From: Polyangiaceae bacterium
Lineage (GTDB): Bacteria > Myxococcota_A > Polyangia > Polyangiales > Polyangiaceae
Assembly (NCBI GenBank): GCA_015075635.1
Contig: JABTUA010000001.1
Coordinates: 186,001 to 250,000 of the forward strand
DNA: 64,000 nt
Direction: 5' to 3'
Numbering within the stretch: the first letter of the stretch is position 1; each line of letters begins with the position of its first letter. The notes beneath the pieces were generated by a model, which did no database searches, was not told the DNA's origin, and saw nothing but the letters and a program-made list of their open reading frames with translations. The translations under genes were made by a program, and so were the position numbers. This document shows, piece by piece, positions 12,235-26,571 of this stretch.

Positions 12235-14190
12235 ATGGCCAGCGTCAGGCTCGAGGTACTGAACGGCAGCGCAAAAGGCCGGGTCCTCGAGCCCGACGGG
12301 GACGTCGTGCGCATCGGGCGCGCTGCCACGAACGAGCTGCAGCTCGAGGAGACGCACGTCTCCGGCGAGCACGCCCGGCTGGTGATCGGCGCCGAGCGCG
12401 TGACCTTGGAGGATCTGCGCAGCACGAACGGGACGGCCATCCTCCGCGGCACGCAGCGCATTCTGCTCGGCGAGGCCAGCTCGCTCCGCACGGTGCTCGA
12501 GTCCGGTGACGTTGTCGAGCTGGGCGGCGCGGCGGAAGAGAGCACCGGCGTGCGCGTCGAGCTCGGCGCCGAGCGCGAGCCCTCCCACGTGGTGAGCGTC
12601 CGGCCCATCGGCGAGCTCCCGGGTTTCACCGCGTCGAGCGAGCGGAACACCGGCGTGCTCGCCACGCTGTACCGAGTCGAGAAGGCCATTGGCGGGGCAG
12701 CCGACCTGGACTCGGTGCTGGTAGCCGTGGCGGACGCCGCGCTCGAGCTGGTGCCGGCCGCGACCCACGCCACGCTGGTCCTGCGCGACGACATCGAGAC
12801 CGAGGCGGAGCGCGGCGACGCCGGCTACGTCCCCGTGCTGACCCGGGTGCGCGGCGCCGAAGGTCGGGGCGAGGCGCCGGGCGGCGCCGTGGCGGTGACG
12901 CGCAGCGTGTTCCGCAAGGTGGTGCGCGAGCGCGCGGCGGTCCTGGCCGCCGACGCTCCGGCCGAGTCTTTCAGCTCCGAGTCGTTGCTCGGGGCCAGCA
13001 TCCGCAGCACCATCGGCGTGCCGCTGTGGAAGGGCGAGGAGATCCTGGGCGTGGTGCAGGTGGACAACCGCGCCTCGCCGGGGATGTTCGACTCGGCCGA
13101 CCTCGAGGCGCTGGGCGTGCTGGCGGCGAGCGCCTCTCTGGCCGTCGCCAACGCGCGCCTGGTGCGGCGCCTCTTGGCGGCCGAGGAGCAGCTCCAGAAG
13201 GAGAACTCGTTCCTCAAGAGCCGCGAGCGCGCCAAGACCAGCGGCGCCGTGGAGATCATCGGGCAGAGCCGGGCGATCCGCGAGCTGATGAAGCAGCTCG
13301 ACAAGGTCGTGGACACCCGCGTCACCGTGCTGGTCGAGGGCGAGACCGGGACGGGCAAGGAGCTGATCGCGTCGGCGGTGCACTACCGCTCACGTCGCCG
13401 CGCCAAGCTCTTCGTCGCACAGAACTGCGCGGCCCTGCCGGAGAACCTGCTGGAGAGCGAGCTCTTCGGTCACAAACGCGGGTCGTTCACCGGGGCCACG
13501 GAGGAGAAGCGCGGCCTGTTCGACGTGGCCGACGGCGGCACCTTGTTCCTGGACGAGGTGACCGAGATGCCCCTCGCGCTCCAGGCCAAGCTGCTCCGGG
13601 TGCTCCAGGAGGGGGAGATTCGTCCCGTGGGCGCCACCCACACCAAGATCGTGGACGTGCGCATCGTCGCCGCCTGCAACCGGAACCTGGAGAAGGAGGT
13701 GCAGGCCGGGCGCTTCCGCGAGGACCTGTACTACCGGCTCAAGGTGTTCCCGATCCGCGTTCCGCCGCTGCGCGAACGGCGCGACGACGTGCCGCTCCTG
13801 GCAGGCCACTTCCTGGAGCGCTACACCAAGGAGGTCGGCAAACCCGTAGCGGGATTCTCGCAGGGGTCCATGGAGCTGTTGATGGCGTACGACTGGCCCG
13901 GCAACGTGCGCGAGCTGGAGAACGAGATCCAGCGCCTGGTGATCCAGGCCGAGCCGGACGGCTTCATCACGCCGGATCTCTTGAGCCCCCGCGTGCGGCA
14001 GATGGAGGGCGTGATCGCCCAGGCCGGCGCGGTCAAGGGCTCCCTCAAGGACATGGTCGAGCGGGTGGAGAAGTACTTCATCCTGGAGACGCTGCGCGAG
14101 CACGGCAACAACAAGACCAGCGCGGCCAAGACGCTGGGCATCACCCGAGAGGGGTTGCACAAGAAGCTCAAGCAGCTGGGGATTGGCTGA
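12235..14190 (+). CDS. Sigma-54-dependent activator with FHA, GAF, AAA+ and Fis-type HTH domains
   Basis: A 651-residue enhancer-binding protein of the type abundant in myxobacteria. Residues 1-100 form an FHA phosphothreonine-binding domain (RIGR 26-29, SGEHAR from 43, STNG 63-66). Residues about 140-315 are a GAF domain and 340-575 the AAA+ domain. The latter has Walker A GETGTGKE (369-376), the sigma-54 loop GSFTGA (416-421, Ser in place of the usual Ala) and Walker B GGTLFLDE (434-441). The C-terminal 45 residues form a Fis-type helix-turn-helix. An FHA input suggests control by a Ser/Thr kinase instead of a histidine kinase. Targets are unknown. Confidence 0.9.
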
Positions 14191-14575: not shown

Positions 14576-15165
14576 TGCCGAGCCGGCGCGAGCTCCTGGG
14601 CGGCGTGGGCGCCCTCGCCCTGGGTGCCTGCGTTCCGGTCGCGACCGCTTCGGTGCCGCCCCAGCTGCCGCGGCGGGGCGCCGACAAGCCCGAGCTGGTC
14701 GTGCAGGAGATCGGCGATTACCAGTGCCCGTTCTGCGCCGCGGTCCAGCCGGCGGTGAAGCGCGTGATGCAGACCTACGGAGAGCGCGTCGCGCTGGTCT
14801 GGCGTGACTACCCCATCGCGCGCCACGAGCACGCGATGGGCGCCGCCGAGGCCGCGCGGGAGGCAAAGGCCCAGCTCGGCGACGAGGGCTTCTGGCAATA
14901 CCACGACGTGTTGTTCAGGAACCAGAGCACCCTCGCGCCGGCGGACCTGTTGCGCTTCGCGGAGGCGTTCGCCATCGATCGCACGCGCTTGCGCCGGGCG
15001 CTCGAGCTCGGCATCCACCGCGACGGCGTGCTGTCCGACAAGCGCGAGATCGACGCGCTGAAGCTCCCCGGGTTCGGCACGCCGGCGTTCATCATCGGCG
15101 CGGACCTGTTCGTGGGCAACTACAGCTACGAAGAGCTGGCGGGTTTGGTCGAGAACGCGCTCTGA
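14575..15165 (+). CDS. DsbA-family thiol oxidoreductase, Tat-type lipoprotein
   Basis: A 196-residue thioredoxin-fold protein. The signal begins MPSRRELLGG, a good twin-arginine motif, and ends at a lipobox-like ALGAC. The protein is therefore probably exported folded and lipid-anchored. The active site is CPFC (in DYQCPFCAAV, about residues 52-55) and the cis-Pro loop is FGTPAFIIG. The family includes DsbA, DsbG and BdbD-type enzymes that form or isomerise disulfides. It is translationally coupled to the Cys-rich lipoprotein at 14207. Its last 40 bases overlap, on the other strand, the 3' end of the GMC oxidoreductase gene. Confidence 0.82.
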   Translation: MPSRRELLGGVGALALGACVPVATASVPPQLPRRGADKPELVVQEIGDYQCPFCAAVQPAVKRVMQTYGERVALVWRDYPIARHEHAMGAAEAAREAKAQLGDEGFWQYHDVLFRNQSTLAPADLLRFAEAFAIDRTRLRRALELGIHRDGVLSDKREIDALKLPGFGTPAFIIGADLFVGNYSYEELAGLVENAL

Positions 15166-16691
15166 TCCTGCGCCAGCTTCGCCGACAGGTAGTGCGCCAC
15201 CGTCAAGATCGGCGTCATGGTGTGGCTCGACGCGCTGCTGGGAAATCCCGACGAGTCGAACACGTACACGCCGCGGGTGCCGAAGACCTGGCCGTCGGGG
15301 TCGGCGCCGCCTTGGTCCGGCGAGCCCGCGAAGCGCACGCTGCCTTGCTGGTGAGCGGAGATCAGCGGCGCCGTTGCGGGCGCAAACGGCAACGAGTCCG
15401 CCTTGCCGATGTCAGCCTCCGAGTCGAAGAGCAAGGGCGGGATCGTCGGCACGAGCACGCGGCGTGCGCCGGCGGCGAAGTAGATGCGCGCGGCCTCCTT
15501 GATGGCCTCCCGGAGGCGCGCCTTGTGGTTCTCGGCCTGGCGATAGAAGACGATGGGGTGACCGGCGCTCGCGCCCAAGCGCACCGTGCCGGAGGGCCCG
15601 TCTGGGACCAGCAGCAGTGAGGCGGCGATGCGGTCGTAGTTGGCCATCAGCTCCTTGCCGGCTCGACCGACCAGCGGAAGGAGCGAGGCGACGTTGCCCG
15701 GGGTGCCCATCACTGCCTCGATGCGGAAGCCCCAGAGCCCGTGCTCGGGATCGTCGTCCTTCTCGAACTCGGTGACCGCGTAGGCCTGCGGGATGCCGTC
15801 GAAGGCCCGGATGCGCTCGTCGAACAGCGCGGTGATGGGCAGCTGCGGTTGCAGCGTCAGGTGCTTGCCGACATGTTGTGTGCCGATCTCCGAGCGAAGG
15901 AGCAGCTCCGCGCTGCCGATGGCGTTCGCCGCCACGATCACCACCCGTGCCCGGATGTCGAAGTTGCCCTTGGTGTGATAGCCGTGCTCGTCGAGCGTGG
16001 CCACGCTGATCCGTTTGACCTCGGAGCGGAAGTCGTGGATGCGCAACGCGCGCGCGCGCAAGAAGAAGCGCGCGCCCTTGTCCATGGCCTTGGGGATGGA
16101 CACGAAGCGCGGGTTCCGCTTGGCGTTGAGCGGGCAGCCGAGCAGACAGGTGCCGAGGCCCGCGCAGCCGACGCGGTTGTGGAGCATGACCTCGCCGCGT
16201 TTGCCGAGCTTCTCCGCCCCCGCTCGCAACCGGCGGTTGGCCTCGTTCAGCGCCGCCTCGGGGATGCGGTTCGCGGACAGATCTTCCAGCGCCTTGGCCT
16301 TGAACGGCGCCAGAGTCTCGGGCGAGAAGTCGCTGAGCCCGTGCTTCTTTTGCCAGTGCCTGAGCACGCCGTCCGGGATGGGAACGACGTCGGAGACGTT
16401 GATCACCCCGCCGCCGCCCAGGGCGCGGCCTTGCAGCACGCTCACCGACAGGTCCTCGGTGACGCGCCCGCCGCGGTCCATGTAGAGCTGGTCGTACATG
16501 GCACCGTCGCGCTGGGTGAGGTCGGTTCCGGTGCGGTCGCCGCCCTCCTCGAGCACCACGACCTCGCGACCGGCCTCGGCGAGGACGCGGGCGGCCGTGG
16601 CGCCGCCGGGGCCCGAGCCGATGACCAGCACCTCACAGGTCAGCCCCGCGGGCGGCGGCTCTTTGGACAGATCGCGGATGCTGCCGCTCAT
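15126..16691 (-). CDS. GMC-family oxidoreductase, large subunit
   Basis: A 521-residue flavoprotein of the glucose-methanol-choline family. FAD binding is shown by VLVIGSGPGGATAARVLAEA (about 25-44) and the acidic end VVVLEEGG. GGGGVINV and the Cys-containing stretch GCAGLGTCLLGCP follow. The C-terminus has SAHQQGSVRF with the catalytic His and SSASSHTMTPILTVAH. It overlaps the Tat-signal small subunit gene upstream by ATGA (16688-16691), the standard two-gene arrangement of this dehydrogenase type. The enzyme is probably carried across the membrane by the partner signal. The substrate is an unknown alcohol or sterol. Confidence 0.87.
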   Translation of the reverse strand: MSGSIRDLSKEPPPAGLTCEVLVIGSGPGGATAARVLAEAGREVVVLEEGGDRTGTDLTQRDGAMYDQLYMDRGGRVTEDLSVSVLQGRALGGGGVINVSDVVPIPDGVLRHWQKKHGLSDFSPETLAPFKAKALEDLSANRIPEAALNEANRRLRAGAEKLGKRGEVMLHNRVGCAGLGTCLLGCPLNAKRNPRFVSIPKAMDKGARFFLRARALRIHDFRSEVKRISVATLDEHGYHTKGNFDIRARVVIVAANAIGSAELLLRSEIGTQHVGKHLTLQPQLPITALFDERIRAFDGIPQAYAVTEFEKDDDPEHGLWGFRIEAVMGTPGNVASLLPLVGRAGKELMANYDRIAASLLLVPDGPSGTVRLGASAGHPIVFYRQAENHKARLREAIKEAARIYFAAGARRVLVPTIPPLLFDSEADIGKADSLPFAPATAPLISAHQQGSVRFAGSPDQGGADPDGQVFGTRGVYVFDSSGFPSSASSHTMTPILTVAHYLSAKLAQDQSAFSTKPASSS

Positions 16692-17237: not shown

Positions 17238-17789
17238 TCAGCTCGCCGTCGCGCGGATCGCTGCCAAAACTTCCTGGGCGTGCTCCTTGGGCTTCACCTC
17301 CGGGAACACCTTGCTGATCTTGCCGTCCTTGCCGATGACGAAGGTCACGCGCTTGGCGTGGCCCATGCTCACCGGCACGCCGAAGGCAGCGGCGATGCTG
17401 CCCTTCTCGTCCGGCCAGAGCAGGAACGGCAGCGCGTGTTTCTCCGCGAACGCCTTGTGCGACTCGTTGTCGTCGGTGGAGACGCCGATCACGACCGCGC
17501 CCGCGGCAGACAGCGCGCCCCACTCGTCCCGGAGGCCCTGGGCCTCCACCGTACAGCCGGGCGTGTCGTCCTTCGGGTAGAAGTAGACGACCACCGGTTT
17601 GCCGCCGAAGTCGCGCAGGCGCACCGTCTGGCCGTTGTGGGCCGTTGCTGCGACGTCCGGCGCCGGATCGCCGACCGCGAGCAGGCCGGTGCGCGGTGCG
17701 GGGCTCGAGCTCGACGCGGTGGGCGCGGGCTCGGCTTGCTTGCAGGCAACCAGCGCGAGGCCGAGCCCGATCGCGAGGAGGAGCTTCAT
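17238..17789 (-). CDS. Bcp/PrxQ-like peroxiredoxin, lipoprotein form
   Basis: A 183-residue thioredoxin-fold peroxidase. The start at 17789 gives a clean lipoprotein signal (MKLLLAIGLGLALVAC), while an upstream frame start adds a Cys-rich stretch without a signal. The peroxidatic Cys is in DDTPGCTVEAQGLRD (about residue 87). Bcp/PrxQ enzymes often have a resolving Cys five residues later (C-x4-C), but here that position is Gln, so it should work as a 1-Cys enzyme. It would reduce peroxides in the envelope. It sits between the giant kinase-activator gene and the GMC dehydrogenase pair, all on the minus strand. Confidence 0.85.
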   Translation of the reverse strand: MKLLLAIGLGLALVACKQAEPAPTASSSSPAPRTGLLAVGDPAPDVAATAHNGQTVRLRDFGGKPVVVYFYPKDDTPGCTVEAQGLRDEWGALSAAGAVVIGVSTDDNESHKAFAEKHALPFLLWPDEKGSIAAAFGVPVSMGHAKRVTFVIGKDGKISKVFPEVKPKEHAQEVLAAIRATAS

Positions 17790-17830: not shown

Positions 17831-20800
17831 TCACTGGATGCCGTACTCGCGCAGGCGGCGATAGAAGGTGCGCCGCGGGATGCCGGACAGCTCTGCGGCC
17901 TTGACCCGGTTCCAGTTGCAGGCCTGGAGGGCCTTCAGGATCTTCTCCCGCTCGTCCGAGCGGTGCTGGCTGATGGTGCTCTTGGGCGGCCGGCGCTGAC
18001 TGGAGCGGGGCGGCCGATTGGTCGTCGTGGTCGAGCGCGACTCGGTGGCGGGCCCGTGGTGCGACGAGTCCGTGCGCGGGGTGAAGACCCGGCCGTCCGG
18101 CACGTCGAGGTCGTCCACCTGAAGCTCACTCCGATCCGAGAGCACCCAGGCGTTCAGGAGCACGTGCTCGAGCTGTCGCACGTTACCCGGCCAGTCGTAG
18201 GCCATCAGCCGGCGCATGGCGTCCCGCGAGAGCGTGCCCTTGTCGCGCTTGTAGCGCGCGGAGAACAGACCCAGGAAGTGATCGACCAGCTGCGGGATGT
18301 CCTCCGAGCGTTCGCGCAGCGACGGCAGCCGCAGCTCGACGACGTGGATGCGGTAGTAGAGGTCCTCCCGGAAGCGACCGTCCTTGACCATCGCCTCCAG
18401 CTCTTTGTTCGTCGCGAAGACCAGGCGCACGTCCACCGGTTCTTCGGTTGCGCCGCCCACCGGGCGTACCTTGCGCTCCTGGAGCACGCGCAAGAGGCCC
18501 GCCTGCATCTTGTCGGGCATCTCGCCGATCTCGTCGAGCAGCACGCTGCCGCCCTCGGCCTCGCGGAACAGACCCTTGCGATCTCGATCGGCCCCCGTGT
18601 AGGCGCCCTTCACGTTGCCGAACAGCTCGCTCTCGAGCAGGTGCTCGGGAATGGCGCCGCAGTTGACGCCCAGGAACTTCGCCTTCCCACGCGGCGACGC
18701 CTCGTGCACCGCGCGGGCCACCATCTCTTTACCGGTGCCACTCTCACCGGTGATGAGCACGGGCACGTCGGTGTCGCGGATGCGGTCGATCAGCGCGTAC
18801 ACGCGGCGCATGGCGCTCGAGGTACCGACCAGGCCGTGGTAGCCGAAGTGCGAGTACAGCGTGTCGCGCGCGTCTCTGAGCTTCTTCCGGGCCTCCTTCA
18901 GCTTGTGGGTGCGCTCCCCGAGCAGCTCCCGCAGCCGCCCCTGAGCGTCCTCGAGCTCCCGGTTCGTGCGGCCCAGCTCGTCCGCGCGCTCGCGGTTCTC
19001 GTTGACCAGACGCGCCGTCTCGATGGCGATGGCCACCTGGTCGGCGAAGGCGCGCAGCGTCGGCAGCTCGTCCTCGAAGTGCGAGGCGGCACGGACGCGG
19101 GTCTCCACGTACAGGGCGCCGATGGGGCGGCCGGAAGGCGCCAGGATCGGCACGCAGGCCACCGACTGCAGGTGCATCTGGTGCACCGACGAGAAGCTCT
19201 TCAACCGCTTGTCGTCGCCGGCGCTCACGCTGACCATGGGCTCGCCCTTTGCGATCACGCTCTCGGCGATGGAGCGCGAGAACTCTGCGTGGGGCTCGTC
19301 GCCCAGGCGCGAGCGAGAGCTGAACACGCTGAGGGTGCCGTCCGGCTCGCGCAGGATCACGTAGCCGCGCTCGGCGCGGGTGAGCTCCACGGCGTGGCTC
19401 ACCACGCGCGAGGTGAGCCGCTCGAGATCGAGCTCGCCCACCAGCTCGGCGTTCACCTCGAGGATGCGCGCCAGGCGCTGCTCCAGCGGCGTCGACGCGT
19501 GGGACGAGATGGGCGAGAGCTGCGAGATCTGGCTGATGCGGGGAGTGAGCTTGGTCGCGGCGTGCGCGGTCACGGCCACGGCCATCTCGCGCTGCACCAG
19601 GGATCTGAGCTCGCGGCGCCGCGGATCGTTCCAGTAGACCTCGCGCAGGTCCCGGGGCAAGCGCGCGCCGATGTCCTCGAGCAGGGCGAGCGCCTCCTCG
19701 CGATCGCGCCGGGCGTTCATGCTCTGCCCGGACGCCTCCTCCAGCTCGGCGCGAGCGGCGAGCGCGCGCCACGACCACTCGCGCTGCCCAGCCTCGCGCG
19801 AGGCAGCGAGCGCGTCGTCCAGGGCCTGGCGCGCGCCGCCCTCGTCGTCCGCCAGCATCGCCACGCGGCCCTCGGCCAGCTTGCGCAGCGGGCGGTGCGC
19901 GGGGCTGTCCCCGATCTCGCGCTCCGCTCGATCGAGCCAACCCCGGAGCTCCGAGACGTCCTCCGTTCCCGAGCGCGTCGCGATCAGCACGGCCTCGAGC
20001 AGCGCCTCGGCCGCGTCGATGCCGCGTCCGAGCGCCTCGTACGCCGCGGCGCACGCCTCGTAGGCCCGCACGCTCTCGGCCGTTTGCCCGGACAGCGCGT
20101 GGAGCTCGGCCTGGAGCCCGTAGAGCTGCGCGCGCATCACCGGCGGCAGCTGCGCGCGCTGCTCTTCCAGCGCGGCGATGCTGGCGCGCGCGCGGGCCAG
20201 CCGGCCCAGGTAGAGGTCGGTGTTGGCGAGGTTCAAGAGCGCCTGCCGCGTCGTCGAGCGACGGCCGGAGCGCTTGCCCATGTCCACCGCGCCCTCGAAG
20301 TGCTGAATGGCCCCCGCGATGTCGCCACGCATCTTCAAGAGGCCGGCCAGGTTCAGCCGCAGCGTGGCGAGCATGCCCGCGTCCCCCGCCTTCTCCCCGG
20401 CGACCAGCCCTTCTTCGTAGAACTTGCGCGCCTCGTCCATGCGGTCGTGGCGCTGCAGCGCGAAGCCCAGGCAGGTGAGCGCGACGGACTCGGCGCGGGG
20501 CGAGTCGAGCTCGCGCGCGCGCATCACGGCGCGCGTCAAGAGCTCGCGAGCCTCGTCGTGGCGGCCCAGGAAGGACAGCGACGAGCCCTTGAAGGCCAGC
20601 GCTTCGACGCCGAGCGCGGACGGCTCGTCAGTGATGGGCGCGACCGTCTCCAGCGCCTTGGCGTAGTCCGCGAGGCCAACGTAGGCGCGCGTCAGGTACA
20701 AGAGCCAGGCCTTGCCGGCGGGCGACGCGAGCTGCTCTTCTGCCAGCGCGCGCACCGACTCCAGCTGCTCGAGCGCGCTCGTGGCTTCGCCCAGACCCAC

Positions 20801-22273
20801 CGCGAGGCGCGCCCGGGCGATCGCCATGGTCAGCGGGTCGGCGTCGCGCACCGCGTCCAGGGCGGTGCGAGCGTCGTCGTAGCGCCCCTTCTCCAGGAAG
20901 TGCTGCGCGCGCTCCAGGGCATCCGCGGGCAGTGCCGCCGCGCTGGCTGGATCTTCGGAGAGCACGCGCTCGATGTCGGACGCGGAAGCCACCGCCTCCG
21001 AGGCGATTGCGCGCACCACCCGGCGCAGCTCGCCCGGGCGGCAGCCGCAGGCGCTCACGATGCGCTCGATCATCGAGTCCGTGAGCGACGGCACGGCGCG
21101 CCGCACCAGGTCCATGGCCGCGGGTTTGTCCAGGGGCGGCACCACGCACTCGGGAGCGTCGGCGCCGAGCGCCGAGCCGCCGACCACCACCAGGCGGGCG
21201 CCCGCGGCCTGCGCGCGCTTCAGCGCGCCCAGGCTCTGCTCGTCCAGACGATCGGCGTCGTCGATCAGCACGATCAGCCGCTCCGCCGCCTGATCGGAGA
21301 GCTCGGCCTCCACCGCGGCGAAGGAGCCCGAGTCCACCAACGCGACCGGCGCGCCCTGTACGCCGAGCGACCAAGCGACGCGCCTGAGCAACGCAGTGCG
21401 CCCCGAGCCGGCGGGCCCAGCCAGGCGTAGCAGCCCGCCGGCGGGCAGCGCGTTGACGGCGTCCAGAAGCTTGTTCGCCACGCCATCGATGCCCACGACG
21501 GGCCAGATCGCCACCGCGCTGCCGCTCGGCTCGGGCGCGGGCAGCGCCGCCGCGTGGCGCAACGCGCTCGCGAACTCGTCGGCCGAGGGATAGCGTTCGC
21601 TCGGCTCGTCGCCGGTTGCTCGCTCCGCCACCTGGTTCAGCCGCTGGGCGACGTCGGCCGGCAGGCTCTTCGCCTGCTCCACCGCTTCCATCAGCGCTAC
21701 GCCGAGCGCGTACACCTCCGCGCGCACGGTGAGCGGTCCCCCCGCCAAGAGCTCCGGCGCGGCGTAGCGCGGCGTGAGCCCTTCGGCGGCGGTGCCTTTC
21801 TCGCGCCACGGAGCGGCCAGGCCAAGGTCCACCAAGGTCGCGCGCCCACCGCGCTCGACGATGATGTTCGCGGGCTTGATGTCACCGTGCAGGAGCCCAG
21901 CGCGGTGCACCAGCGTGAGCTGCTCTGCCGCGCGCGCCAGCGCGTCGAGCGTGCGCTGGGTCTCGAGCCCGCGCTCGATCAGATCCTGCAAGCTGTCTCC
22001 CTCGACGAGCTCGCGCACCATGAACGGCCGCAGGCTGCCCGGCAGGCGACCGAAGCGCACCACCCGCGGGACGCCCAGGCCCTCGAGACCGGAGAGCGCC
22101 ACGGCCTCGCGCACCAGCGCCGCCATCTCGCGCTCGCTGGCGCCTTCGGCCAGCACCTTCAGCGCGAGGCTCTGCCCGCTGTGGCGGTCACGGACCGACC
22201 ACACCTCCCCGCCGCCGCCCTTGCCGAGGCGGTTGACGGGGAGGTAACGCTTGGGCAGCTCGAGCCGGGCCAC
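17831..22273 (-). CDS. Ser/Thr protein kinase - ATPase - TPR - GAF - sigma-54 activator fusion
   Basis: A 1480-residue cytoplasmic regulator. Residues 10-245 form a protein kinase with Lys39 (LALKVL), HGDIKPANI with catalytic Asp131, DLG (149-151) in place of DFG, and APE (172-174). A STAND/AAA-like ATPase follows, with P-loop GPAGSGRT (286-293) and LIVLIDDA (333-340). About 440-900 are TPR helices, 925-1095 a GAF domain and 1095-1145 a coiled coil. The sigma-54 AAA+ domain has GESGTGKE (1176-1183), GAYTGA (1223-1228) and GGSVLLDE (1241-1248). A Fis-type HTH ends the protein. The GTG start lies 6 bases after the outer-membrane gene at 22280, so the two should share a transcript. Confidence 0.9.
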   Translation of the reverse strand: MARLELPKRYLPVNRLGKGGGGEVWSVRDRHSGQSLALKVLAEGASEREMAALVREAVALSGLEGLGVPRVVRFGRLPGSLRPFMVRELVEGDSLQDLIERGLETQRTLDALARAAEQLTLVHRAGLLHGDIKPANIIVERGGRATLVDLGLAAPWREKGTAAEGLTPRYAAPELLAGGPLTVRAEVYALGVALMEAVEQAKSLPADVAQRLNQVAERATGDEPSERYPSADEFASALRHAAALPAPEPSGSAVAIWPVVGIDGVANKLLDAVNALPAGGLLRLAGPAGSGRTALLRRVAWSLGVQGAPVALVDSGSFAAVEAELSDQAAERLIVLIDDADRLDEQSLGALKRAQAAGARLVVVGGSALGADAPECVVPPLDKPAAMDLVRRAVPSLTDSMIERIVSACGCRPGELRRVVRAIASEAVASASDIERVLSEDPASAAALPADALERAQHFLEKGRYDDARTALDAVRDADPLTMAIARARLAVGLGEATSALEQLESVRALAEEQLASPAGKAWLLYLTRAYVGLADYAKALETVAPITDEPSALGVEALAFKGSSLSFLGRHDEARELLTRAVMRARELDSPRAESVALTCLGFALQRHDRMDEARKFYEEGLVAGEKAGDAGMLATLRLNLAGLLKMRGDIAGAIQHFEGAVDMGKRSGRRSTTRQALLNLANTDLYLGRLARARASIAALEEQRAQLPPVMRAQLYGLQAELHALSGQTAESVRAYEACAAAYEALGRGIDAAEALLEAVLIATRSGTEDVSELRGWLDRAEREIGDSPAHRPLRKLAEGRVAMLADDEGGARQALDDALAASREAGQREWSWRALAARAELEEASGQSMNARRDREEALALLEDIGARLPRDLREVYWNDPRRRELRSLVQREMAVAVTAHAATKLTPRISQISQLSPISSHASTPLEQRLARILEVNAELVGELDLERLTSRVVSHAVELTRAERGYVILREPDGTLSVFSSRSRLGDEPHAEFSRSIAESVIAKGEPMVSVSAGDDKRLKSFSSVHQMHLQSVACVPILAPSGRPIGALYVETRVRAASHFEDELPTLRAFADQVAIAIETARLVNENRERADELGRTNRELEDAQGRLRELLGERTHKLKEARKKLRDARDTLYSHFGYHGLVGTSSAMRRVYALIDRIRDTDVPVLITGESGTGKEMVARAVHEASPRGKAKFLGVNCGAIPEHLLESELFGNVKGAYTGADRDRKGLFREAEGGSVLLDEIGEMPDKMQAGLLRVLQERKVRPVGGATEEPVDVRLVFATNKELEAMVKDGRFREDLYYRIHVVELRLPSLRERSEDIPQLVDHFLGLFSARYKRDKGTLSRDAMRRLMAYDWPGNVRQLEHVLLNAWVLSDRSELQVDDLDVPDGRVFTPRTDSSHHGPATESRSTTTTNRPPRSSQRRPPKSTISQHRSDEREKILKALQACNWNRVKAAELSGIPRRTFYRRLREYGIQ

Positions 22274-22279
22274 GACCGC

Positions 22280-23185
22280 CTAGAGCCCGTAGTCGGCTCC
22301 CAGCCCGAAGAAGAAGCCGCTGGTGCCGAAGCCCAGATCCAGGCGCCCCACGAAGCTCTTGCTGGGCTTGTAGCGGAAGCCGGTCTGAAGCACGAGCCAG
22401 GGGAAGATGATGGGCTTGCTGCCACCGTCGGCCCAGCTCGGCTCCGTGTAGCCGCCGTAGTGGTCGTTGTCGCTGCCGCAGAACGCGCCGGTTCCCGCTG
22501 GGTCGTTGGGGCCGGTGCACTTCTTCCACTTGTACGGATCTTCGTTCGGGTTGCCGCTCTCCGGATACGCCTGGGTCCGGAAGAGATCGCCGAACACCAG
22601 GCCGAAGCCGGCGCCCATGCCGTAGTTGACGGCGAACTGCGGTCCGAGCTCCTGGCTCCAAAGGAAGTCGGCGGTCAGGTAGATGACGTTGAGATCGCTC
22701 TTGACCACTTCCCAGGCGCTGGCCGGATCGTCACTCGCCTTGAAGGGCGTCTCGTCCATGTAGTAGCCCGCCCACCAGAGGCTGAAGATGTACTCGAAGC
22801 CGTCCTTGCGGATCGCGAACTCGGGCCCGACGCCGTGCACGAGCACCGTGTCGCCGCCGTCGCCGAACAGGTTGACCATGAACTTCGGGATCACGATGCC
22901 GCGGTAGCGCAGGCCCACGAAGCGATAGGTCTGGCCGGGCAGCTCCACCGGCGAGTCACCCGCCGGCGAGTCCGCTGCCGGATCGCCGGCCGCGGGCTTC
23001 GCCCCCTCTGCCTCCGCGGGCTTCGCGCCCTCCGCGGGTTTCGCCTCGACCGGCGGCGCGTCGGCTTCGCCCTCCGCCGGCTTGGCCTCCGCCTCTGCCT
23101 CACCCTGTGCCACGACGGCAGGCGCCGCAGCCAACACGACCACCCCGAGCGCGCTGCTCAAACTCCACTTCCGCCAACCCAACAT
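22280..23185 (-). CDS. Outer-membrane protein with Ala/Lys/Pro/Glu repeat region
   Basis: A 301-residue exported protein. The start at 23185 is supported by a GGAGG in the leader and gives a signal peptide ending at VVAQG. Residues about 25-85 are a low-complexity linker built on AKPAEG-like units. The rest is rich in aromatic beta strands with Gly/Tyr/Phe alternation and ends FGTSGFFFGLGADYGL, as expected for a beta-barrel whose last residue is hydrophobic. The gene is followed after 6 bases by the kinase-activator gene. It is preceded by -24/-12 sigma-54 elements at 23208-23243. The ligand or cargo is unknown. Confidence 0.7.
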   Translation of the reverse strand: MLGWRKWSLSSALGVVVLAAAPAVVAQGEAEAEAKPAEGEADAPPVEAKPAEGAKPAEAEGAKPAAGDPAADSPAGDSPVELPGQTYRFVGLRYRGIVIPKFMVNLFGDGGDTVLVHGVGPEFAIRKDGFEYIFSLWWAGYYMDETPFKASDDPASAWEVVKSDLNVIYLTADFLWSQELGPQFAVNYGMGAGFGLVFGDLFRTQAYPESGNPNEDPYKWKKCTGPNDPAGTGAFCGSDNDHYGGYTEPSWADGGSKPIIFPWLVLQTGFRYKPSKSFVGRLDLGFGTSGFFFGLGADYGL

Positions 23186-23205
23186 GTTCCAGCCCTCCGT
23201 GTGCC

Positions 23206-23222
23206 TTGGCACGCCCCGTGCC
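23206..23222 (+). promoter_or_regulatory. Sigma-54 type promoter towards the alpha/beta hydrolase gene
   Basis: TTGGCACG, then CCCC, then GTGCC gives the -24 GG at 23208-23209 and the -12 GC at 23220-23221. These are exactly 12 bases apart, as sigma-54 requires. Transcription would begin near 23233 and leave a leader of about 90 bases before the ATG at 23322. The overall match to TTGGCACG-N4-TTGCA is good apart from G in the first T position and C in the last. Confidence 0.55.
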
Positions 23223-23243
23223 ACTGCGGCGCGGATTGTGCCA
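23208..23243 (-). promoter_or_regulatory. Two sigma-54 type promoters towards the outer-membrane protein and kinase-activator genes
   Basis: Read on the minus strand, TGGCACAATCCGCGCC (23243 down to 23228) and TGGCACGGGGCGTGCC (23223 down to 23208) each have GG and GC 12 bases apart. The expected starts are near 23217 and 23197, which leave leaders of about 32 and 11 bases before the ATG at 23185. The stretch also holds the palindromes GTGCCTTGGCAC (23201-23212) and GTGCCATGGCAC (23238-23249). The elements for the two directions therefore interleave. Confidence 0.5.
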
Positions 23244-23321
23244 TGGCACTGTGCCAGATCGCAAAGCCTGGTTTCGCCGAGGAATTCTGGGGGTGCGCGG
23301 CGCTCCCCGACCGCTGGGGCC

Positions 23322-24458
23322 ATGCTATTGGTGCTCCGCCGCCTCGGGCGGCGCGCTCGCATGATCCTCCACAGTCTGGTCGTCGAGCAGGCCGTCGACA
23401 TCGACGAGCGTCTCCCCTTCGTCAAGGAGCTGGTGCTCGCCCGCGGCGTGATGCCGATCGCGATGGTCCGCAAGCGCGCGCTCCGCGCCCGCGAAGGAGG
23501 CCCGCTCGCGAGCGGCGCGCCGGAAGACGCGGCCGCTGAGACGCTCGCTCCGGTGCTCCTGATCCACGGCTACGGGCAGAACCGCTACGCCTTTCACCTG
23601 CCTCTCCGGAGCATGGCCAACCACCTGGCCCGGGCGGGCTTCGACGTGTTCAACGTGGATCTGCGCGGGCGCGGCCGCAGCGGCCACTTCGGCGCGCGCC
23701 GGCCCCGCTCGGTGCTCGAGTTCATCCATGAGGACGTACCGGCGGCGCTCGACGAGATCCGCGCGCTCTCCGGCGATCGACCCGTGTTCCTGGTCGGGCA
23801 CTCCCTCGGCGGCGTGGTCAGCTACTGCGTCGCGGTCGATCACCGCTCGCGCATCGCCGGCGTGGCCACGCTGGGCTCGCCGTACCACTTCACGGCGGGC
23901 TCGCGCTGGCTCACGAGCCTCACCAGCGCGTTCCTGGCGCTCGACCAGCGCATGAACCTGCCGAACTTCGCGGTCCCGGCTCGGGCCTACGGCAAGTTCG
24001 TGCGCACCGCGCGGCGGGTAGTGGACAGCCCGTTCTACCCGCTGCCGTTCCGCGGATTTCATCGGGGCGCCATCGAGCCCGAGGTGCTCGAGCAACACAT
24101 GGCGCTGGCCATGGACCGCGGCAGCGTCGCCACCATGCGCGCCATGTTCAGCTGGGCCCAGGAGGCCCGCGAGCGCAAGGCCGGCGACGACGGCCTGTTC
24201 GGCTACGCCAAGCGCTTCGAGTCGCTGGACCTGCCGCTCTTGGTGATCGCCGGCATCTACGACGACCTCGCCGCCCCCGAGTCGGTGAAGCCCGCCTGGT
24301 CACACTCCGGCTCGAGCGATCGCACCTATCGCGAGCTGCCCTTCGGGCACGTGGACCTGCTCATCGGCCGCGAAGCGCCGCAGCTCACCTGGCCGCTGCT
24401 CGAGTCCTGGCTCACCAAGCGCGTGCGCGACCGAGCGCGGGCCGCCGCCAGCTACTGA
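23322..24458 (+). CDS. Alpha/beta hydrolase (lipase/esterase-like)
   Basis: A 378-residue hydrolase. The oxyanion-region motif is LLIHGYGQNRYAF (about 80-92), the nucleophile elbow is VGHSLGG (Ser about 166), the acid lies in GIYDDLAAP, and the His in LPFGHVDLLIG near the C-terminus. The VDLRGRGRSG stretch is typical of the family. An alternative start is the ATG at 23361, which removes 13 basic residues. It lacks an evident signal peptide. Divergent sigma-54 elements lie upstream, and its 3' end overlaps the convergent coiled-coil gene by 7 bases. A PHA-depolymerase or acyl-esterase role is possible but not shown. Confidence 0.78.
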   Translation: MLLVLRRLGRRARMILHSLVVEQAVDIDERLPFVKELVLARGVMPIAMVRKRALRAREGGPLASGAPEDAAAETLAPVLLIHGYGQNRYAFHLPLRSMANHLARAGFDVFNVDLRGRGRSGHFGARRPRSVLEFIHEDVPAALDEIRALSGDRPVFLVGHSLGGVVSYCVAVDHRSRIAGVATLGSPYHFTAGSRWLTSLTSAFLALDQRMNLPNFAVPARAYGKFVRTARRVVDSPFYPLPFRGFHRGAIEPEVLEQHMALAMDRGSVATMRAMFSWAQEARERKAGDDGLFGYAKRFESLDLPLLVIAGIYDDLAAPESVKPAWSHSGSSDRTYRELPFGHVDLLIGREAPQLTWPLLESWLTKRVRDRARAAASY

Positions 24459-25323: not shown

Positions 25324-25731
25324 ATGAGTCCGCCGATGTCCGACAAGCTGCGGAAGTCCGAGGCGGAGTGGCGCGCGGCGCTGAGCGAGGAGCAGTACCG
25401 GATCGCGCGCGAGAAGGGCACCGAGCGCGCGTTCACGGGTGAGTACTACGACTGCAAGGAAGCCGGCACGTACAAGTGCGTCTGCTGCGGCGCGGAGCTG
25501 TTCTCGTCGGAGACGAAGTACGACTCGGGCAGCGGCTGGCCGAGCTTCTGGCGACCCGCGACCGACGGCGCGATCGACCAGGAGAGCGACACCTCCTACG
25601 GCATGCGCCGCGTCGAGGTGAAGTGCGCGCGCTGCGACGCGCACCTGGGTCACGTCTTCGAGGACGGCCCGGCGCCCACGGGCCTGCGCTACTGCATCAA
25701 CAGCGCGTCGCTCCGGCTCGAGAAGAAGTGA
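25324..25731 (+). CDS. msrB: Peptide methionine-R-sulfoxide reductase MsrB
   Basis: A 135-residue enzyme that reduces the R form of methionine sulfoxide in proteins. Two Zn-binding CxxC pairs are seen at C52/C55 ([10 protein letters not shown]) and C101/C104 ([11 protein letters not shown]). The catalytic Cys is C124 in RYCINSASL, and GSGWPSFW (about 69-76) is the substrate-binding block. The length is typical. ATG 25324 and ATG 25336 are both possible starts. It has no signal peptide and should be cytoplasmic. It follows the TPR-like lipoprotein closely and converges with the lipoprotein at 25738. Confidence 0.93.
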
Positions 25732-25737
25732 TTCTCC

Positions 25738-26571
25738 TCAGCTCTCCGGCTGCACGCTGCCGATCTTGCTGACGTCGAAGGCGAACGCGCGCTTGCCGTT
25801 CTCGACGATCACCTTGATCGTGTCCTCGTCCACCCGCTGGAACGAGAGCTTCAGCTGCTTGTTCTTGGGGGTGAGCAGGGTGTAGCTGCCGGCCTGGGGC
25901 ACCGGATCGATCCAGCGCATCTGGACGCCGTCGATGGTCAGGTCCCACGCTCCGCGGGGGCTCGTCCAAGAGCGGGTTCCGTCCACCTGGATACCCTCGA
26001 GCACGCCGCCGGCGAGGGGGGTCTGGGTGCGGTCCCCTTCACCCGTCACCGTGAAGCCATCGAGAACTCTGGTCCACTGTACGCTGTGAACGACCTGGCG
26101 GCTCTTGGCCTGGAAGTCCCAGGTCACGTCGGCGGTGCCGTTGAGCTTCACGCGGCCGTTCGACAGGTCCGTCCACTCGTGGTGCACCAGCACCTGGGCC
26201 TGCTCGTTCTTGTCCACGCGGATGCTGTGCGAGCCGCTGAAGGTGTGGCCCTTGTAGGTGCAGCTGCCGGCCTTGGCACCGTAGCTGACGGTCAGGGTGG
26301 CGTCCGCCAGCGTGATCTCGGCGCAGGGCAGCTGCGAAGCGACGAAATCCCGGATTTCCTGGGCCGCGCTCTGCACCGCCTGGCCGATGGTGAAGCTCGT
26401 CGTGATCTCCACGGAGGCCGCCTGAAGGCTCTCGGCCTGCGAAGACAGCGTGGACTCCTCGACCGCCTGCTGGGCCTCGGCCAGGGTCAGGCTCTCCCCG
26501 TCGTCCTTCTTCTTGGGGCAGCCGCTGAGAACCACCGTCAACACCAGGCCCACGAGCGCGCGAGATCGCAT
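25738..26571 (-). CDS. Lipoprotein of unknown function
   Basis: A 277-residue lipoprotein with signal and lipobox VVLSGC (Cys about 18), followed by Pro-Lys-Lys-Lys. Residues about 25-75 are helical (SLTLAEAQQAVEESTLSSQ), and the remainder is beta-rich with alternating Thr/Val and several Trp. It has two Cys (in QLPCAEI and GSCTYKG) that could form a disulfide. The start is fixed by a strong AGGAGG 9 bases upstream. No homologous family is recognised. Its stop is 6 bases from msrB on the other strand. Confidence 0.68.
   Translation of the reverse strand: MRSRALVGLVLTVVLSGCPKKKDDGESLTLAEAQQAVEESTLSSQAESLQAASVEITTSFTIGQAVQSAAQEIRDFVASQLPCAEITLADATLTVSYGAKAGSCTYKGHTFSGSHSIRVDKNEQAQVLVHHEWTDLSNGRVKLNGTADVTWDFQAKSRQVVHSVQWTRVLDGFTVTGEGDRTQTPLAGGVLEGIQVDGTRSWTSPRGAWDLTIDGVQMRWIDPVPQAGSYTLLTPKNKQLKLSFQRVDEDTIKVIVENGKRAFAFDVSKIGSVQPES

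Follow-up and report, generated by a model that had tools for sequence, protein, structure and literature searches.

We report here on the control region of a two-gene operon of a Polyangiaceae bacterium, coding for a predicted outer-membrane β-barrel protein and a kinase-fused activator of σ54-dependent transcription, and lying in a window of 64,000 nucleotides (contig JABTUA010000001.1, positions 186001-250000) from a genome of 9.47 Mb. Sequence comparison suggests that this operon has a σ70-type extended -10 promoter lying under an operator of TGGCAC half-sites, with probable autogenous repression. We give this statement as a whole an even chance of being right, and our confidence is higher for the σ70-type promoter than for the identity of the regulator. 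RNA polymerase with σ70 (probably RpoD) would use TTGCGA, 18 bp, TGG·CACAAT on the minus strand (23264-23235) and start near 23228. The half-sites would be an operator overlapping this promoter, which would be occluded by a regulator that binds TGGCAC, most likely the activator that the operon encodes, acting through its HTH_8 domain. When the activator is active would depend on its kinase, GAF and TPR parts. Its σ54 targets were not found at this locus, and its own operon need not be among them. The first-pass annotation had seen in the same region divergent σ54 promoters, by which the activator, under phosphorylation control, would drive its own synthesis and that of an opposite hydrolase gene (Table 1).

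Table 1. Features of the locus (window positions; minus-strand sites of the σ54 type are given in their reading direction).
Feature	Position	Strand	Remarks
Kinase-activator gene	17831..22273	-	1480 aa; open reading frame and domain search
Predicted outer-membrane β-barrel gene	22280..23185	-	301 aa; OmpA/OmpX-like fold in model
σ54-like site	23207-23222	+	TGGCACGCCCCGTGCC; GG/GC 12 apart
σ54-like site, downstream	23223-23208	-	TGGCACGGGGCGTGCC; GG/GC 12 apart
Palindrome TGGCACG-CCC-CGTGCCA	23207..23223	both	17 bp; same as the plus site with the downstream minus site
σ54-like site, upstream	23243-23228	-	TGGCACAATCCGCGCC; GG/GC 12 apart; no T before GC
Putative extended -10, TGG + CACAAT	23235..23243	-	18 bp from TTGCGA; TGG 23243-23241, CACAAT 23240-23235
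TGGCAC half-site	23244..23249	+	with 23243-23238 forms the 12-mer GTGCCATGGCAC
TGGCAC half-site	23251..23256	-	in spacer of promoter; the half-site in the -10 follows 13 bp downstream
-35-like hexamer TTGCGA	23259..23264	-	conserved pattern in the window
α/β-hydrolase gene	23361..24458, predicted reading frame from 23322	+	start by relatives' alignments

Our evidence comes from a comparison of orthologous loci. Searching named genomes with the barrel protein yielded 25 loci. The gene pair occurs in Polyangiaceae, in other Polyangia or Myxococcales, and in a small number of genomes labelled Deltaproteobacteria. The kinase-activator gene directly follows the barrel gene in 24 of the 25, the exception being L097, with about 4.8 kb downstream of its barrel gene and no kinase-activator. 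The 25 upstream regions compared are those of the window and of L073-L096, i.e., two congeners and 22 regions outside the window's genus; L097 was left out because its barrel gene starts at the contig end, with no upstream DNA. Each region comprises up to 300 nt ahead of the extrapolated start of the gene and 45 nt beyond it (250 and 30 for the window). Thirteen further loci, more distant or loosely anchored, were counted apart, contigs shared between scans were counted once, and L018, L019, L023 and L027-L030 (distant, cut or paralogue) stand outside every count.

On the operon strand, 17 of the 25 upstream regions carry the layout TTG(C/G)NN, 17-18 bp, TGN·CANNNT, and on the other strand none does. 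Counts in each region's own genome give an expectation of 0.001 per region for TTG(C/G)NN-17/18-TGNCANNNT. When the first element is relaxed to TTGNNN, 14 of the 22 regions outside the genus have it with TGNCANNNT at a spacing of 17-18 bp (11 at 18 bp, 3 at 17 bp), and the other spacings between 10 and 26 give 5 regions at 11 and one each at 13, 25 and 26. In the 17 regions the T, G, A and T of TG-N-CANNNT are unvarying while the flanks are 32% identical pairwise, an invariance that is partly built in by selecting with the pattern. Three loci (L078, L081, L084) have no TGGCAC at the -10, yet keep the TTG, TG, A and T. A second form, TGTA(G/C)NNT, is found in 7 of the 8 regions that lack the main pattern and in none of the 17 that have it (0.045 expected per region). 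The operons of the Polyangium and Minicystis rosea records have this second form. In the window, TG stands one base before the hexamer, which has A at its second and T at its sixth position, as in an extended -10.

Several observations weigh against this promoter. By our own count, the site in the window agrees with TTGACA/TATAAT in 8 of 12 letters, which falls short of a close match, and a generic promoter scan, its cut-off set at 9, finds no promoter here. In this genome, TGNCANNNT shows no enrichment in front of genes when compared with shuffled sequence (28 vs 25; coding density gives 9). The pattern was spotted by visual inspection of the complete set of regions, and the test on the 22 regions was consequently not blind. 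In an unguided dyad scan, TTG-N21-CAC ranked 4th of 110,592, though it was outdone in 1 of 20 controls, and the σ54 dyads ranked below 2,600; in an earlier scan against a different background, shuffled sets outscored the best of the real regions. These unguided scans were not decisive. One region of the 25 (L096) has neither form of the -10. Finally, the site could be read by a different member of the σ70 family.

On the other hand, the three -24/-12-like sites described in the first-pass annotation, all with GG and GC exactly 12 apart, are present as it stated. Their independence did not survive: the plus-strand site and the downstream minus-strand site are a single palindrome, which seems to be two σ54 sites because any TGGCAC-N5-GTGCCA looks σ54-like on both strands. 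These two sites carry the strict motif (TGGCAC and TGC, with GG/GC 12 apart). On the operon strand the window alone has this motif among the 25 regions, on the hydrolase strand the only occurrence is the window's palindrome again, and outside the genus neither strand has it in any of the 22 upstream regions. In both congeners, the gap of the TGGCAC-GTGCCA palindrome is 6 nt vs 5 nt in the window, which puts GG and GC 13 apart. Outside the genus, TGGCAC followed by GC shows no peak at spacing 12 (4/22; other spacings 2-8/22). Conserved divergent σ54 promoters were rejected on the strict-motif counts, and the comparison of this intergenic region among related genomes, which the annotation had itself proposed, thus speaks against them as drivers; the element that is conserved is σ70-like.

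It may be that the window itself uses 23223-23208 for the operon and 23207-23222 for the hydrolase, with the kinase-activator driving both. Indeed, the σ54 gene is present (one match in the window's genome and in each of 20 genomes searched), and the σ54 promoter class is real in this genome. Among 345 upstream regions (864 kb of genome), 9 copies of TGGCAC-N6-TGC were counted, against 0.2 expected from shuffles and 0.3 from coding density; the palindrome 23207-23223 accounts for 2 of the 9, and 7 lie elsewhere. GC stands at offset 12 from 37% of intergenic TGGCAC and at offset 13 from 1%, a peak that is partly an 11-copy repeat (about 19 of 62 are left after two repeat families are collapsed by eye). 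The perfect σ54 16-mer consensus is found 12 times in the genome vs 2 for its reversed control, and TGNTANNNT is enriched upstream of genes (26 vs 12 in shuffles; 0.7 from coding density). Because the promoter class is real here, we do not dismiss σ54 use in this species. The Nla28 operon of Myxococcus xanthus is described as autoregulated; its promoter is of the σ54 type and was characterised through mutations, the consensus being TGGCACG-N4-TTGC(T/A) (PMC9765219). The 5-7 nt given for the spacing between the two σ54 elements (PMC12316311) would admit that of the congeners. Against this reading stand the strict-motif counts, the spacing of 13 in both congeners and the palindromic nature of the two sites. 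Moreover, the half-sites at 23238-23256 would lie about 40-58 bp upstream of the predicted minus-strand start (23198), which seems close for an enhancer, and they lie downstream of the predicted plus-strand start (23233), for which reason they were rejected as an enhancer of the plus-strand site. Altogether, we hold it unlikely that these σ54 sites drive the two transcription units.

Other σ54-like sequences were seen away from this intergenic region. A scan of the whole window allowing up to 2 mismatches to the 16-mer consensus gives no excess (18 found, 21.3 expected). At 26615-26600 on the minus strand, TGGCACGGAGGCTGCT has 1 mismatch to this 16-mer and lies 44 nt upstream of a gene of 277 aa (25738-26571) that matches no Pfam family; by its letters it would be a better σ54 promoter candidate than the sites between 23207 and 23243. 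On another contig (L053-L060, positions 1-160000), an intergenic repeat with TGGGTTCACCTGGCTGGCACGCCGCTCGC is present in 11 identical copies in about 136 kb.

The -24 box of the upstream minus-strand site is the putative extended -10. The σ54 holoenzyme could bind TGGCAC here and block the σ70-type promoter by competition, being itself the repressor. In E. coli, σ54 holoenzyme is described as repressing overlapping σ70 promoters (PMC4551910), and GG and GC are 12 apart in this site and in 7 of the 15 aligned sites that have GG. Against this, GC at spacing 12, which σ54 needs, is no commoner than at spacing 10 (8/15), and with a T before GC it is found in 0 of 22 regions outside the genus; we regard such a role of σ54 as very improbable. 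A still bolder idea is that TGGCAC serves at once as σ70 extended -10, σ54 -24 box and activator operator, so that σ54 holoenzyme, σ70 holoenzyme and the kinase-fused activator would contest the same bases. We find it quite improbable; if true, the operon would flip between housekeeping and phosphorylation-controlled transcription.

Returning to the σ70-type promoter, its proposed operator rests on an excess of one word. The top-ranked hexamers in the 25 regions are GGCACA and TGGCAC. TGGCAC has 67 copies, in 23 of the 25 regions, vs 8.5 expected from the upstream regions of each own genome; outside the promoter cores, 34 copies are left, in 22 of the 25 regions, where 7.6 are expected. In the window, half-sites occupy the spacer between -35 and -10, overlap the -10 itself and continue past the predicted start, so that a bound protein would block σ70 polymerase and thereby repress. 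Genome-wide, paired half-sites are no more frequent than their controls (14 vs 15; 15 vs 18), on which ground a genome-wide TGGCAC regulon was rejected, and GTGCCATGGCAC is found at one place only in the genome, as is its control. The cluster therefore looks local, because pairs occur at the control rate elsewhere and the 12-mer is found only here. The direct repeat TGGCAC-N7-TGGCAC has two places in the genome beyond that in the window, both on other contigs: one at C3:1412831, inside an open reading frame of 318 aa, and one at C2:2599142, with reading frames on both strands and without the T of the conserved -10.

As to which protein binds, we infer from this local and conserved cluster beside its own operon that the activator binds TGGCAC. 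Its recognition helix, PRRTFYRRL, is identical in all 22 aligned activators whose sequence extends that far. The GAFTGA-type loop is kept in 21 of these 22 (as GAYTGA in the genus and in L088), and because of this conservation the activator should act on σ54 somewhere. The activator of L075 has GSFTSA at the σ54-contact loop, with the Walker motifs and the helix-turn-helix (HTH) kept. In the genome, 55 places, counting the activator's own, match it at E<=1e-40, and almost all of these matches fall in the σ54-activator domain, so that adjacency alone does not name it.

Not all of the half-site evidence favours the activator. The arrangement of the half-sites varies, with the direct repeat TGGCAC-N7-TGGCAC (13 bp) in 9 of 25 regions and GTGCCATGGCAC in some others, and is therefore odd for a single dimer. 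Two loci, L078 and L094, have no TGGCAC though the recognition helix of their activators is kept. In the 13 further loci, TGGCAC is found in only 5 and TGTA(G/C)NNT in 6. Hence, TGGCAC might be bound by an unlinked repressor or activator instead of the operon's product, the promoter still being of the σ70 type. The half-site excess names no protein, the two loci just mentioned fit a binder encoded elsewhere, and Fis-type HTH domains usually target a dyad, unlike the 13-bp direct repeats of the 9 regions. On the contrary, the lack of any genome-wide excess of half-site pairs is what one expects of a local rather than a global regulator. We consider an unlinked regulator unlikely. For the claim that the activator drives its own synthesis and the hydrolase, self-regulation of some kind is thus retained as our favoured inference; activation through σ54 is not, repression being more likely.

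Autogenous repression at an operator of this kind would be of a known sort, and no new mechanism is shown: the circuit is ordinary. In enterobacteria, PspF and NtrC repress their own promoters, and their sites overlap the σ70 promoter of the activator gene, as proposed here. The present case differs in that no σ54 target promoter of the activator was found at this locus, and in that its half-sites, copies of TGGCAC, are arranged variably. In Bacillus thuringiensis, the σ54 activator SoxR is reported to exert negative autoregulation on its own promoter (PMC4941409). The sox locus resembles ours in having an activator gene with opposing transcription units and an own promoter without -24/-12, as well as negative autoregulation through a shared binding site, which would hold here too; it was studied there by reporter assays and is deduced here from sequence, and the description of that locus used here mentions neither a kinase fusion nor an outer-membrane gene. 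The Nla28 operon is likewise a myxobacterial σ54-activator operon with self-regulation, which our operon would share. It has a -24/-12 promoter, a type that is not conserved in the relatives compared here (PMC9765219). Searches of an open-licence library gave no paper on a unit of barrel and kinase-activator, and the titles and abstract openings that they returned hold nothing specific on kinase-fused σ54 activators in myxobacteria.

The genes of the locus are largely as first described. The open reading frames confirm a minus-strand operon in which the barrel gene is followed, after 6 bp, by that of the 1480-residue activator, and the kinase-ATPase-TPR-GAF-σ54 architecture was borne out by a profile search, which finds Pkinase (PF00069, residues 13-210), a STAND-type ATPase, TPR, GAF, the σ54-interaction ATPase (PF00158, residues 1148-1314) and HTH_8 (1441-1477). 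The protein has the traits of a bacterial enhancer-binding protein: an AAA+ σ54-interaction domain with GESGTGKE (Walker A), LLDEIGEMP (Walker B) and GAYTGA, and an HTH. In its predicted kinase domain and the 24 aligned with it, the A(L/V)K lysine and HGDxKP (HGD replacing the usual HRD) are present in 25 of 25, and DLG takes the place of DFG in 23, with DFG in L084 and a gap in L077. The 301-aa protein matches no family in Pfam and NCBIfam searches. Its structural model is a β-barrel with a mean predicted local distance difference test score of 77.9 (84-96 in most barrel blocks), and its best solved Foldseek matches are OmpA, Ail and OmpX, at 8-12% identity and a query template-modelling score of 0.33-0.37; that it is an outer-membrane protein is a prediction.

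A hydrolase homologue is found on the opposite strand in at least 14 of the 25 loci; in at least 12 it lies no more than 400 nt from the barrel gene. Both counts are lower bounds, since some loci end near the barrel gene. This close divergent neighbour of 12 loci would have its own promoter; TA-boxes near the start were seen by eye, uncounted, upstream of the hydrolase in some relatives. The homologues' alignments start at residues 9-14 of the protein predicted in the window, and residue 14 corresponds to ATG or GTG followed by I-L in all 15 hydrolases (the window and 14 relatives), so that the start is most likely 23361 rather than 23322. The intergenic region most likely runs from 23186 to 23360, i.e., 175 bp instead of the 136 bp first given. 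Farther out, the window holds a second σ54 activator (12235-14190, plus strand) with FHA, GAF, σ54-interaction and HTH_8 domains. Genes of redox type lie downstream of the kinase-activator, one AhpC/TSA peroxiredoxin-like (17238-17789, minus) and one for a GMC oxidoreductase (15126-16691, minus), and a SelR-domain gene lies past the hydrolase (25336-25731, plus).

In conclusion, this locus carries a warning for GC-rich myxobacterial DNA, where TGGCAC repeated in inverted orientation at a suitable distance automatically mimics a divergent pair of σ54 promoters. Comparison of orthologous upstream regions can separate σ54 boxes from σ70-type boxes made of the same letters. It also brings out a conserved two-gene unit of Polyangiaceae and their kin, a predicted β-barrel with a kinase-STAND-TPR-GAF-σ54 activator, for which the proposed promoter and operator are defined and can be tested.

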